DNA of 50,043 bases from Pseudomonadota bacterium. Its GTDB lineage: Bacteria > Pseudomonadota > Gammaproteobacteria > Burkholderiales > Thiobacillaceae. Below are positions 34,125 to 38,622 of the stretch, piece by piece; position 1 is the stretch's first letter, and the number at the start of each line of letters is the position of its first letter. Below the pieces are notes generated by a model. That model was not told where the DNA came from. It saw nothing but the letters and a program-made list of their open reading frames with translations, and did no database searches. The DNA lies in the NCBI GenBank assembly GCA_021826065.1, contig JAKADY010000019.1, positions 1 to 50,043 on the forward strand. The letters are read 5' to 3'. The translations under genes were made by a program, and so were the position numbers.

Positions 34125-34847
34125 TCATGGGGGGGCGCTGCGTCCCGCCAGTGAACCCTGGACCAGTTCGATGCGCCGGCGTATGAGTTCGAGTCCGGCC
34201 CGATCACCGGCGGCCTCGGCACGCTTGGCCTGCACCTCCAGCCAGGCCAGCAGCGGGCGCCGCCAGCCCTGGTCGGAGGCGGTGCGTGTGGCCAGGGCGA
34301 TGACCTCGGGCGCGGCGCGTCCCGCCCGGAACAGGGCGCCGGCGGCGATGGCACGCGGGAGGGGCTCCTTGATCTCCTCGAGCGCGCGCAGGCGTGCCGG
34401 CTCTTCTCTGGCCGCAAGCAGACCGCGATAGTGTGCCGGTAGGCGGCTGGCATCGAGCCCTTGCCAATCACCCGTCAGGAAGCGCGCATAGGCCTGGTCC
34501 TCCTCGCCGGCATGCGCGGCCAGCCGTTCAAAGGCGGTGCAGGGCCCGGTTTCCAGCGCGGCCAGCCGCACCGCACAGCGGGTGAGCTCCGCGCGCGCCA
34601 CCAGATCCAGCCGCCCCGTGCGTGCGATCTCTGCCCGGGCGCGCTCGAAGTGCCGCTCGGCCAGCAGGGTTTCGCCGTCGAGGTAGTGCTTGCCATAGCT
34701 CTCCAGCAAGCTGTGGGCATTGAGCTTCCAGTCGGCCGGCGGTGGCCCGCTGGCGCAACCGGTCAGCAGCGCGAGCAGGCAGGCAGCGGCCGCCCGCCGT
34801 AAGGCCTGGCCGCCTCGCCCCGATCGCCCCATCGCGCCCCCCGTCAT
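34125..34847 (-). CDS. Lipoprotein of the Mla-like operon
   Basis: About 240 residues with an N-terminal lipoprotein signal (AAAACLLALLTGC, then ASGPPPADWKL). The mature part is Ala/Arg/Leu-rich and helical, with no recognised domain. Its shape suggests helical repeats (for example LLAERHFERARAEIARTGRLDLVARAELTRCAVRLAAL). The ATG overlaps the mce stop by 4 nt, making it the fourth coupled gene of the operon. It may anchor or guide lipid traffic at the outer membrane. This is inference from context. The 76 nt upstream of YeeE/YedE separate the two units. Confidence 0.7.
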   Translation of the reverse strand: MTGGAMGRSGRGGQALRRAAAACLLALLTGCASGPPPADWKLNAHSLLESYGKHYLDGETLLAERHFERARAEIARTGRLDLVARAELTRCAVRLAALETGPCTAFERLAAHAGEEDQAYARFLTGDWQGLDASRLPAHYRGLLAAREEPARLRALEEIKEPLPRAIAAGALFRAGRAAPEVIALATRTASDQGWRRPLLAWLEVQAKRAEAAGDRAGLELIRRRIELVQGSLAGRSAPP

Positions 34848-35842
34848 GGCAGTTTGAGCTCCACATCGCGCCGGAAAGGCCATTTGCGGTTGATCTCGTT
34901 GATAAGGTGGTTGACCTTGCGGATGCTGTCGTCGACTTCGACGCGCAGGATGGTGAGATCGGTGGTCGCGCCTTTCACGTCGGCGGTGATGGCATTGACG
35001 TTATCAGCCGCACCCTGGGCGGCGAGCAGGATGGCATCGGCCCGCTTCAGGCTCTCCCGCACCTCGGTGAGGATGGCGTTGACCTGAGCGAGCGAGCGGT
35101 CGGTCTGGTCCATCACCCCGCCGCTGCCGAACACGCGCTGGTCGGCCTTGGCCAGGGTCTGGTCCACGCGCAGGGAGATGCCGTTCAAGCTCGTGAGCAG
35201 GGTGTTGGCGCGGTCTAGGGCCTCGACCACCTTGCGCGCCTTGTCCGGCCCGCCCAGCACCCCCTCCAGCACGCCATAGTCGCCGGTCATACGGCCGGTG
35301 ACCGTGTCGACATGGGCCAGCGCGCGGTTGATGCTGGAATCGGCCGCGGTCATGGCCTCGACGTTGCTGAGGATGGCCTTGACGCGGGCCATGATGACGG
35401 GGATGTCCTCGGTGGCGTCGCCGGTGATGAGCTCGCGCTCGGCCCCGTCGGGCAGGGGCGGATCGGACAGGACAGCGCTGAAGGCGCGGATGCGGGCGCC
35501 GCCGACGAGCCCCTTTTCCAGAGTGAACTGGCTGGAGGTGCGCAGCCAGCGGGCATCCTTCTCGGGCACGGCGATATGGATGCGCACCCGGCCATCCTCG
35601 GTGAGATCGAGGCGTTTGACCTGGCCGATGGGGAAGCCGGAGAAGGTGAGCGGCATGCCGATGGTCACCCCCTCGGCGTTGTTGGCGAGCAGGATCAGGT
35701 CCTGGGTGGGCTGGAAGGTGCCGCGTGCATACAAGACATAGACGATAAAGGCCAGGGCCAGGACGCCGGTGGTAGCGAGCAGCAGGCCGACCTTCAGCTC
35801 CAGATTCTTGATCAGCGGGGCGCGTACAGGGGCGCGTTCCAT
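34844..35842 (-). CDS. MlaD/MCE family periplasmic lipid-binding protein
   Basis: The 332-residue protein has one N-terminal membrane anchor (KVGLLLATTGVLALAFIVYVLYA), a single MCE domain (about 45-150, with NNAEGVTIGMPLTFSGFPIGQVKRLDL), then a long helical region to about residue 320. MCE proteins form hexameric rings that carry phospholipids across the periplasm with an MlaFE-type ABC transporter. It is encoded directly after the degenerate ABC gene with a 31-nt overlap. It is longer than E. coli MlaD, so it may form a longer helical barrel. Confidence 0.88.
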   Translation of the reverse strand: MERAPVRAPLIKNLELKVGLLLATTGVLALAFIVYVLYARGTFQPTQDLILLANNAEGVTIGMPLTFSGFPIGQVKRLDLTEDGRVRIHIAVPEKDARWLRTSSQFTLEKGLVGGARIRAFSAVLSDPPLPDGAERELITGDATEDIPVIMARVKAILSNVEAMTAADSSINRALAHVDTVTGRMTGDYGVLEGVLGGPDKARKVVEALDRANTLLTSLNGISLRVDQTLAKADQRVFGSGGVMDQTDRSLAQVNAILTEVRESLKRADAILLAAQGAADNVNAITADVKGATTDLTILRVEVDDSIRKVNHLINEINRKWPFRRDVELKLP

Positions 35843-36252
35843 GCGTAGTCCAGGATCCGGCAGTCTTCGTATTCGCCTTCCAGGGCCTGCAGGGTCGCGG
35901 CCAGGAAGGGGGGATAGTGGACGTCCGGCAGCAACATCGCCGGCCGATCGATCAGGATTATAGGCGGTTGCAGGATCACCGCCCGTAACAATTTGGCGAC
36001 GAAGCGCTCAACACAGTTCAGGCTGGGGTCGCGCTTGAAGGCGCAGTCCGTCTGGTTGAGGCGGGCGAGCAGGGCCCAGGCCTGGTCGGCGGCCACGTCA
36101 TAGGAGAGGTTTTGCCGGTACTGCGGCACGATGGCGATGTTCTCCAGCACCGAAAGATTCGCCCTTAGGGGGAGCTCGACCGAAACCAGGGCGGCCTCGG
36201 GCTGTGATTCGATCATGGCCTCTCGCTCCGCAGCGTCGTTGAGCCAGATCAC
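35812..36252 (-). CDS. ABC-ATPase-like protein lacking catalytic motifs
   Basis: The 146-residue product aligns by eye with the second half of MlaF-type ABC ATPases: LSVLENIAIVPQYRQNLSY fits the stretch after the Q-loop, and SLNCVERFVAKLLRAVILQPPIILIDRP fits the signature to Walker B stretch. There is no Walker A, no Q-loop, the signature LSGG reads LNCV, and the catalytic Glu after Walker B is Arg. It should not hydrolyse ATP. The GTG start overlaps the permease stop by 4 nt, and the reading frame is intact and tightly coupled, so it is not simple decay. Its family is inferred from motif order and context. Confidence 0.6.
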   Translation of the reverse strand: MIWLNDAAEREAMIESQPEAALVSVELPLRANLSVLENIAIVPQYRQNLSYDVAADQAWALLARLNQTDCAFKRDPSLNCVERFVAKLLRAVILQPPIILIDRPAMLLPDVHYPPFLAATLQALEGEYEDCRILDYAWNAPLYAPR

Positions 36253-37043
36253 ATGTAGACCAGTGCCAATGATGCCACCTCGATGAACATGATGACGAAG
36301 AATAGCCGCACCATGCCGCGCAGCACGGCGATGGGGGCGAAAAACAGCATGCGCGGCGCCTCCAGTCCGGCGCGGATGGGGATCAGGGTCACCGCCAGGC
36401 CGAACAGCAGGCTCTTGACGGTGAGGGTGAGAAAGGCGGTGGGCGTGAAGATCTTGGCGATGACGCGGCTGAAGTCGCTGAGGCTCCAGGGCTGAAAGCC
36501 GTAGACCGCGATGTAGGCCAGGATGAGCGCCAGGATGCAGGACAGCAGGGTGAGGGCATAGACCGAGATGGCGCCGCCGATCACCCGCGGGGTGAACTCG
36601 AAGCGCATGGGGTCCACCCCCACGTCCTCCAGGGCGCGGATCTCGTTGTTGATGTTCATGAGCGCCACTTCGGTGTTGATGGCCGCTCCCGAGCGTAAGG
36701 CCACGAACAGGACCGTCAGTAGCGGCAGGGTCTCCAGCACCACCACCCGCACCGAGACCTCCAGGGCGAATTCCGACAGACCGAAGTCGCGCGCGGTGGT
36801 GACCACGATCTGGATGATCACGTAGGACAGCAGGGCCGCGAACAAAAGAAAGCCGGGCAGGATCTGCCAGGCGGTGAAATAGATCTGCTTGAGCACCACG
36901 GAGCGCGTGGCGCTGTTGTAAACGGCCGGGGTGAAGGTCTCCACCAGGGCGCGGGCGCCGAAGGTGAGCAGTCGCCCCCAGGCCTGTAACCAGCCGAGCG
37001 CGCCGCCGCCGATGCGGGTGAGGAACCTGAGGGCCGTGTGCAT
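36249..37043 (-). CDS. MlaE-type ABC transporter permease
   Basis: About 264 residues with five or six helices and the MlaE-family stretch FVALRSGAAINTEVALMNINNEIRALEDVGVDPMRFEFTPRVIGG near residues 126-171, which contains the conserved EIxALxxxGxDP-like coupling motif. It is the membrane part of a retrograde or anterograde phospholipid transporter. The ATG at 37043 (MHTALRFL) is preferred to the start at 37130, which would run into the divergent gene. It is the first gene of the operon MlaE-ABC-like-MCE-lipoprotein. Confidence 0.87.
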   Translation of the reverse strand: MHTALRFLTRIGGGALGWLQAWGRLLTFGARALVETFTPAVYNSATRSVVLKQIYFTAWQILPGFLLFAALLSYVIIQIVVTTARDFGLSEFALEVSVRVVVLETLPLLTVLFVALRSGAAINTEVALMNINNEIRALEDVGVDPMRFEFTPRVIGGAISVYALTLLSCILALILAYIAVYGFQPWSLSDFSRVIAKIFTPTAFLTLTVKSLLFGLAVTLIPIRAGLEAPRMLFFAPIAVLRGMVRLFFVIMFIEVASLALVYM

Positions 37044-37123: not shown

Positions 37124-37681
37124 ATGACACGCTTACGATACATCGCGACGGTCCTGCTCGGCTGGCTGCTCGCCTGGGCCACGCCGGTCTGGGCCAACAC
37201 CGGGACCATGCTGCGCGACGACCAACTGCGCGCCGCCGCCTCGGCCACCGCGCCGGTGCTCGCTCCGGTGGCGCGCGGCACCAATGTGGAGGTACTGGCC
37301 CGCCAGGGCGGCTGGACCCAGATCCGGGCGGGCGGCCGCACGGGCTGGGTGCGCATGCTGTCGGTGCGCACCAGCGATACCGCCCAGCGCGACGTCGGCG
37401 GTGAGCTCGCCGGCGTGATCGGCATGGGCACGCGTCAGGCCGATCCCGGCCGTGTGGTCGCGGTGGCCGGGGTGCGTGGGCTCACCCTCACCGAACAAGT
37501 CCTCAAGGAGGCGCGCTTCAACGCCCAGGAACTCGAACGCCTGGAGCGCTATGCGGTGAGCCGCGCCGAGGCCCAGGCCTTCGCCCGCGAGGGGGGGCTG
37601 GTCGCGCGCGCGGTCGACTACATCCCGGCCCCCGCCCAGGCGCGGCGTCAATCCAGCCCTTGGGAGGAATCGCAATGGTGA
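37124..37681 (+). CDS. Exported SH3b-domain protein
   Basis: The 185-residue precursor has a signal peptide (to PVWAN, about residue 25) and a bacterial SH3 domain (about 28-85: DDQLRAAASATAPVLAPVARGTNVEVLARQGGWTQIRAGGRTGWVRM). The helical C-terminus has no known domain. Such domains usually bind peptidoglycan or protein ligands in the periplasm. The stop overlaps the start of the M48 peptidase gene by 7 nt, so the two are coupled and may work together on envelope proteins. Confidence 0.8.
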   Translation: MTRLRYIATVLLGWLLAWATPVWANTGTMLRDDQLRAAASATAPVLAPVARGTNVEVLARQGGWTQIRAGGRTGWVRMLSVRTSDTAQRDVGGELAGVIGMGTRQADPGRVVAVAGVRGLTLTEQVLKEARFNAQELERLERYAVSRAEAQAFAREGGLVARAVDYIPAPAQARRQSSPWEESQW

Positions 37682-38622
37682 GCAAACCCCTGCTCCTGGC
37701 CTTGCTCGCCGTGGCCAGCCTGGCCCACGCCACTGACCTCAACCGCACCCTGCGCGACGTGTTGTTCGGTCGCCCGCCTGTGACGACGCAGCCGGCGCCC
37801 TCCGCCATGGGGACTGCGCCGCAGCAGGCGCCGCAAAGCCAGCAAACCACGCAGACGCAGACCGAGCGCCGGCCGCGCACCGCTGAGCTGCTGGGCGGTC
37901 TGCTAAGCCTCGTCGGCGAGCCGCCGCAGACCCTGGAGGAGGAGCGCAACATCGGCCGCACCGTCGCCGGCAGTCTGCTGGGGGCCGTGCCCCTGGTACG
38001 TGACGACGAGCTGCAGCGCTACGTGAACCGCGTCGGCCGCTGGCTGGCGCTGCAGAGCGAACGGCCGGACCTCAACTGGCATTTTGGCGTGCTCGACACC
38101 GAGGACATCAACGCTTTTGCCATGCCCGGCGGCTACATCTTCGTCACCAAGGGGCTGTACCGTCAGCTCAACAGCGAGGCTGAGCTCGCCGGGGTGCTAG
38201 GGCACGAGATCGGCCACGTGATCCGCAAGCACCACCTGCGCATGATGCAGAAGAGCCGGGCGCTGGCCGACTTGGGCGCCGCGGTGGGCCGGCGCATGGA
38301 GGGTGGCTCACCCATCGCCGCCAACTTCATGGGCAACTTCTGGGAGGCCTTCGCGCGCGGCCTGGACAAGGAGACGGAATACGAGGCCGACCGCATCGGC
38401 ATGGTGCTCGCCGCCCGCGCCGGCTACGATGCCTACGGCCTGCCCACCGTGCTGCAGGCGATCGGGCACGTCTCCGCCAACGACAGCCGGGTGGCTTTCC
38501 TGTTCAAGACCCATCCTCACCCCGATGATCGCTTCGCCACCCTTTCGGAGGCGGTCGGCAGCCGCCTCGACAACCTGCCCGAGGGCAAGACCCTCAGCAA
38601 CCGTTTCTACCGCCTGCGCTGA
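37675..38622 (+). CDS. Periplasmic M48-family zinc metallopeptidase
   Basis: About 315 residues: a signal peptide (to LAHAT), a Pro/Gln/Thr-rich linker, then an M48 domain with the zinc motif GHEIGHVIRKHH and a downstream zinc-ligand Glu in KETEYEADRIGM. FAMPGGYIFVTKGLYRQLNSEAELAGVLGHE is typical. No TPR repeats are present, so it is shorter than BepA. The expected role is quality control of envelope proteins. The ATG at 37675 is used, since the 37660 ORF start adds only five residues ahead of the signal peptide. Confidence 0.88.
   Translation: MVSKPLLLALLAVASLAHATDLNRTLRDVLFGRPPVTTQPAPSAMGTAPQQAPQSQQTTQTQTERRPRTAELLGGLLSLVGEPPQTLEEERNIGRTVAGSLLGAVPLVRDDELQRYVNRVGRWLALQSERPDLNWHFGVLDTEDINAFAMPGGYIFVTKGLYRQLNSEAELAGVLGHEIGHVIRKHHLRMMQKSRALADLGAAVGRRMEGGSPIAANFMGNFWEAFARGLDKETEYEADRIGMVLAARAGYDAYGLPTVLQAIGHVSANDSRVAFLFKTHPHPDDRFATLSEAVGSRLDNLPEGKTLSNRFYRLR

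Follow-up and report, generated by a model that had tools for sequence, protein, structure and literature searches.

The question raised by this locus is whether an MCE operon in which a dead ABC subunit stands in place of the ATPase MlaF can still encode an ATP-driven transporter. The window, that is, the whole stretch of DNA that was analysed (50,043 nucleotides), comes from a Thiobacillaceae genome (order Burkholderiales) of 2.74 Mb in 74 contigs. It contains an operon of four genes on the minus strand; names of surrounding genes for which no family search is given were assigned by eye. The permease (264 amino acids, 36249..37043) matches PF02405 (E 9.3e-40) and, by Foldseek, 6xbd_G. Its ORF opens at a GTG at 37130, and the ATG at 37043 is the most likely start, since the alignments of many relatives begin there. 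It is followed by a protein of 146 amino acids with a GTG start (35812..36252), a trimmed ABC nucleotide-binding domain (NBD) hereafter named pseudo-NBD, which is small and has no membrane helices by eye. This ORF is real: it shares 4 bases with the permease ORF and 31 bases with the ORF of the MCE protein (332 amino acids, 34844..35842; PF02470, 34 bits against a cut-off of 25.1), which consists of a single MCE domain and a long tail, helical by eye. The fourth gene (34125..34883) encodes a conserved lipoprotein-like protein of no Pfam family. An SH3-domain protein and an M48 peptidase (37124-38622, plus strand) are encoded divergently from the operon. None of the four operon proteins matched MlaB (STAS) or MlaC in Pfam and NCBIfam, and an intact MlaF was absent from the operon by ORF reading and motif check.

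A full mla locus was also searched for elsewhere in the genome, and two are present. C21 holds a canonical mlaF-mlaE-mlaD-mlaC run in which the MlaF motifs are intact, and on C26 an intact MlaF is encoded together with an MCE protein, an auxiliary lipoprotein and an MlaE whose N-terminal part is STAS-like. Since these two intact Mla ATPase operons sit elsewhere, the pseudo-NBD operon is a third MlaE/MCE system. Its MlaE is divergent and scores 137.6 bits, where its two counterparts in the genome reach 257.1 and 237.4.

By sequence, the resemblance of the pseudo-NBD to ABC ATPases is weak but real: Pfam ABC_tran gave E 0.25, below cut-off, NCBIfam LptB gave E 7.8e-6, far under the cut-off of that model, and PDB entry 4u00 gave E 1.6e-4. 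Profile-profile comparison with MlaF gave a clear match (E 3.6e-7) and placed LNCV opposite LSGG and D102-R103 opposite Asp166-Glu167. An AlphaFold2 model built from an alignment of 32 sequences reached pLDDT 95.5 and pTM 0.90; ABC ATPases, several of them MlaF, made up all 50 of the Foldseek matches listed for it, and it superposed on MlaF (6xbd_I) with Z 13.3 and rmsd 2.4 over 141 aligned residues, model positions 1-144 corresponding to MlaF 38-210. Over all structural alignments, model residues ~1-145 fell on NBD residues about 31-218, with one row reaching 229. Model, fold search and superposition thus show that the pseudo-NBD has the NBD fold. By structure it begins at the P-loop strand, which is retained together with the following helix; missing are the N-terminal beta subdomain, the P-loop and all that would come beyond the H-loop.

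The catalytic motifs were scored in 100 distinct loci, which remained from 141 examined after removal of duplicates and contain 80 named loci, the best 80 of 112 confirmed matches. The Walker A motif GxxxxGK[ST], searched downstream of the permease stop, occurs in none of the 100. The signature LSGG is not kept, being LNCV in this genome, and the commonest residues at positions 78-81 are L-T-P-A. At the Walker B Asp position, Asp is found in 78 loci and Glu in 22, and the catalytic Glu that should follow is replaced by Arg (98 loci) or Gln (2). The H-loop, which lies beyond the span of the MlaF profile alignment and was located from the succession of structural elements, has lost its His: Asp135 is present in 100 of 100 loci, followed by Tyr (62) or Phe (38). 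The most conserved stretch is PLRANLSVLENIA, within which LRANLSVLENIA aligns to MlaF LFTDMSVYDNVA; this segment follows the Q-loop and is the place at which the coupling helix docks on NBDs. The pseudo-NBD is therefore a catalytically dead, trimmed NBD throughout the family. The earlier note had read it as a dead ABC subunit between an MlaE-type permease and an MCE protein, overlapping both neighbouring genes, devoid of Walker A and with LNCV for LSGG and Arg for the catalytic Glu, and all of this is borne out by the model, the MlaF superposition and the 100 loci. Its description as the second half of an ABC ATPase was right as to the NBD and wrong as to the extent, since the structure runs from the P-loop strand and lacks the parts past the H-loop.

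In a search with the single sequence, 32 of the 37 source-family genomes had the pseudo-NBD, as did one genome from a different family; five more genomes gave weak matches to ordinary ATPases only. When 399 genomes of the order were searched with a profile, with up to 10 candidates scored per genome, the same short gene was found in at least 32, spread over six families. Because these carriers score 131-234 bits and the next-best match among the candidates scored reaches 45.8 bits, the family signal is far beyond chance. The named relatives with the gene come from a separate search and are genomes of Thiobacillus, Parasulfuritortus, Hydrogenophilales and further betaproteobacteria. At class level (369 genomes, threshold 1e-14) one divergent copy was found outside the order (G658, 61.6 bits), and at phylum level (398 genomes, same threshold) there was no copy outside the source family among the candidates scored.

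The length of the pseudo-NBD is almost constant through the six families, and 19 positions are invariant among 32 sequences whose identity to the source copy goes down to 35%. In four within-genus pairs dN/dS was 0.11-0.30; over 2358 wider pairs the median was 0.43 and the maximum 0.91, values that near-saturated pairs make less useful and that give weaker support. This shows that the pseudo-NBD is under purifying selection, in agreement with the claim of the earlier note that the subunit is maintained. A recent truncation of a full-length ATPase was considered and rejected. A full-length ATPase at the same place was sought in the 100 distinct loci and in 33 operons of relatives without an NBD gene (see below), and was absent from all; nor is there room for a lost half, because the distance from the permease stop to the PLRAN motif is short (25-30 residues in 78 of 88 loci, 37-69 in the other 10). 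On the sequence evidence, then, the gene is old and constrained.

The pseudo-NBD occurs together with its own permease type, which was present in 54 of 54 carriers examined versus one of 11 non-carriers, picked mainly as near relatives. The exception is G028 (80% complete), in which the permease is present and no pseudo-NBD match was found. An MCE gene lies downstream of the pseudo-NBD in 100 of 100 loci and the permease was found upstream in 90; for five of the other ten it was traced to a separate contig or 6.5 kb away, the remaining five (L072, L073, L082, L090 and L095) lying outside that tracing. The lipoprotein-like gene was found in 75 of the 80 named loci, some of which are cut by contig ends, and in 33 of 33 loci that have the permease and no pseudo-NBD. 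It is thus established that the pseudo-NBD occurs together with its permease type, the MCE gene and the lipoprotein gene.

Those 33 loci show that the NBD gene may be absent altogether. A permease search of the 399 genomes (E 1e-40 or better, up to six candidates scored per genome) found the third-type permease in at least 63, of which 30 have the pseudo-NBD and 33 do not; the permeases of carriers G082 and G125 score below this threshold. In all 33, which belong to families other than the source family and were read over 1.5 to 2.7 kb downstream of the permease, no NBD gene lies between permease and MCE, and the first possible MCE start falls between 8 bases before and 91 after the permease stop. 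In one of them (G382, L239) an ABC gene of another kind is present ~2 kb upstream of the operon; we take it, by its layout, to be a nitrate/sulfonate-type ATPase, and it was left out of the count as a candidate MlaF because its layout differs. In two other families of the order, at more distant loci, near-full-length degenerate NBDs separate an MlaE-like permease gene from an MCE gene (L202:820-1455, minus strand; L204:877-1473, minus strand). They score 24.5 and 14.9 bits against Pfam ABC_tran, whose cut-off is 25, and apparently represent further dead-ATPase MCE operons.

When the coupling-helix columns were left out of the permease tree, all 33 NBD-less rows shared one well-supported branch with a single pseudo-NBD row (L149), and this branch is nested among pseudo-NBD rows. 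A single NBD-less clade was not rejected by the AU test (p 0.247), and the tree implies one or two events of pseudo-NBD loss.

If the pseudo-NBD is a partner of the permease, its mark should be sought at the coupling helix, the part of MlaE that touches MlaF according to PMC7790496. The MlaE topology taken from the same paper would place the coupling-helix region at residues about 113-153 (36585..36707, minus strand). The permease is predicted to have the MlaE fold (Foldseek TM 0.83-0.85 to 6xbd_G), with a short helix at 134-140 where the coupling helix would lie by that topology. The source permease reads E125-V-A-L-M129....E134 here, and the motif E-[VILMF]-x-[LTSAM]-M-x4-[EQ] was scored. 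Of 94 distinct permeases from genomes with the pseudo-NBD, 93 have this motif, as against 4 of 33 NBD-less ones. Variability in the NBD-less permeases is raised most in residues 41-60, 111-160 and 221-250, and most other blocks are as conserved as in the other rows or more so. L149, the pseudo-NBD carrier inside the NBD-less branch, keeps the full motif, as do the degenerate-NBD rows L202 and L204 and two of three canonical MlaE rows. These observations are suggestive of a coupling helix that follows the NBD. The correlation amounts to 1-2 contrasts and is unreplicated, since the pseudo-NBD was lost only once or twice, and an independent-pairs test of motif against pseudo-NBD presence, with 1-2 pairs, leaves significance out of reach. 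The scored motif and the NBD are not linked one-to-one, because the canonical C26 row lacks the motif despite its intact MlaF and L203, a stand-alone permease of another type, keeps it with no NBD gene in its 3.6 kb stretch. The latter (L203:1375-2157, plus strand) is a lone MlaE-like permease between genes that by eye are CHASE2/cyclase-like and threonyl-tRNA-synthetase-like, and the ORFs picked in this stretch include neither an NBD/ATPase nor an MCE gene.

The dead subunit is, in our judgement, rather probably a fixed structural clamp of a third MlaE/MCE transporter that does not use ATP hydrolysis of its own. As conservation suggests, the pseudo-NBD would bind the permease dimer at its coupling helices in the manner of MlaF and would hold the permease in one conformation; the complex would then let lipid follow a gradient between the inner membrane and the side of the MCE protein and lipoprotein, with no ATP-driven pumping. 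An NBD of such a transporter would be dispensable, and may for this reason have been lost wholly from a related lineage. According to the review PMC10212509, lipid passes spontaneously from MlaD to MlaC when there is no ATP, and ATP hydrolysis prevents this transfer; an ATP-free version might thus run downhill to the periplasmic side. For Mla itself the review favours retrograde transport. A dead NBD would not always be enough, because Walker B mutants of Mycobacterium tuberculosis MceG fail to stabilise Mce1 and Mce4 (PMC9947336), which counts against a simple scaffold. Chances seem evenly divided for the wider reading, that a Burkholderiales clade of MCE transporters is mid-way out of being ABC transporters: near-full-length degenerate NBDs would persist in far relatives, a P-loop-less mini-NBD would serve as clamp in Thiobacillaceae and others, and elsewhere the NBD would be deleted and the coupling helix decaying, with permease, MCE protein and lipoprotein forming an ATP-free lipid conduit.

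It is unlikely, in our opinion, that an active ATPase encoded elsewhere drives transport in the manner of MceG, which is described as unlinked and shared in PMC9947336, with the pseudo-NBD serving as an adaptor or pairing with an active NBD. Candidates for this role exist. Canonical MlaE/MlaF, encoded by nearly all carriers examined, could serve in trans, and the source genome (G000) encodes an orphan MlaF paralogue (contig C74:45771-46571; L178:6772-7572) that is 65% identical to the operon MlaF and has intact Walker A, Walker B and signature motifs. The ORFs picked from the surrounding 12 kb include no MlaE gene, and the neighbours of the orphan copies differ between the stretches examined. 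All 12 orphan copies have Tyr at the H-loop His, the operon-type MlaF rows of the same alignment having His. Two MlaF-like matches (E 1e-70 or better) were obtained in 23 of 33 carriers of the source family, and one each in four g8 genomes lacking the pseudo-NBD and in G028, which speaks for such a motor. However, the other 10 of these 33 carriers lack the second MlaF, and five of these ten genomes are 99-100% complete; in other families only one (G300) of the 11 carriers searched has it. Moreover, in G255 (4.9 Mb, 96% complete; L179), another of those 11, no MlaF and no canonical MlaE could be detected, and the pseudo-NBD operon has the only MlaE-type permease detected. Hence, among the carriers tested, neither MlaF nor the orphan is universal, and the orphan was kept as a rival motor only. 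The orphan has changed little in the helical region and C-terminal tail of MlaF, so that it would suit canonical MlaE better, and the existence of NBD-less relatives also speaks against a motor in trans, although some other ABC ATPase could possibly play this part. Of the two mechanisms offered by the earlier note, running without ATP hydrolysis has thus gained support, whereas recruitment of a distant ATPase has to face G255 and the patchy distribution of the orphan.

The pseudo-NBD might also be a regulator, such as a brake or an assembly factor, binding transiently or competing with MlaF and forming no part of the core complex. Its small size, its lack of membrane helices by eye and the separation of its gene from the permease gene in some genomes agree with this, and a membrane protein is reported to regulate Mce1 complexes negatively (PMC10517005). 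The MCE gene that adjoins it in every one of the distinct loci and the coupling helix kept where it is present suit a permanent partner better, and we consider a regulator distinctly improbable. That it is a decaying, functionless remnant of mlaF is hardly credible: the loss of the catalytic motifs, the related lineage without the gene and the dN/dS values of the wider pairs could be read in this way, but the within-genus dN/dS, the invariant positions and the near-constant length already contradict it.

As to known systems, the operon shares an MlaE-fold permease, an MCE protein and the core fold of MlaF with MlaFEDB of E. coli, P. aeruginosa and A. baumannii, and differs in its dead and trimmed NBD, in the lack of an MlaB or MlaC match among its four proteins, and in the long tail of the MCE protein, which is followed by a lipoprotein-like gene. 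LetAB and PqiABC are MCE systems not known to depend on an ABC ATPase, and their inner-membrane partner is LetA or PqiA, not an ABC permease of MlaE type; here the partner is not of the LetA/PqiA type, being a PF02405 permease with the MlaE fold. In TAP, CFTR and TM287/288 a degenerate nucleotide site has kept the NBD fold and lost catalytic residues, and one consensus site remains active, whereas this operon encodes a single NBD, which is dead and wholly without P-loop. The mycobacterial Mce1 and Mce4 operons are not known to contain a pseudo-NBD. They resemble this locus as MCE operons without an active ATPase, but the MceG on which they depend is active, required and unlinked (PMC9947336).

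In the open literature (titles and abstract openings, with subscription papers mostly outside) no description of a pseudo-NBD or NBD-less MlaE operon was found. What is new here is an MCE/MlaE transporter whose ATPase has turned into a pseudo-NBD, together with relatives that lost the ATPase gene. Because the dead motor is kept in one group and the motor gene is lost from the operon of relatives, these data suggest that a normally ATP-driven machine has become ATP-free. The role of ATP hydrolysis in the direction of Mla lipid movement is disputed, according to the review PMC10212509, and these loci provide a natural experiment in which homologous transporters have a dead NBD or none in the operon and the source genome also has canonical systems with intact MlaF. 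If confirmed, the structural role of the NBD would be separable from that of ATP hydrolysis, the direction of flow would be measurable in an ATP-free MlaE-based system, and a stepwise path from an ABC transporter to something else would be at hand.

As regards the permeases that have moved away from the pseudo-NBD, no Walker A ORF was present beside those of G014, G017, G021, G024 and G348, or beside the G028 permease, among ORFs picked by length and third-base G+C, a procedure by which small or odd genes can be missed. The Walker A ORFs by the pseudo-NBD/MCE genes of G017 and G024 (L169, L170) were rejected as MlaF, since by eye they encode a replicative-helicase-like protein and a 598-amino-acid half-transporter with its own membrane part. 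In genus g12 (L163, L164 and L168; G014, G021 and G028) the third-type permease lies beside genes that by eye encode ribosomal proteins, away from the pseudo-NBD/MCE pair, G028 having no pseudo-NBD match. In G017, G024 and G348 the SH3-domain/M48-like neighbours have stayed by the permease, though the pseudo-NBD and MCE genes are located elsewhere.
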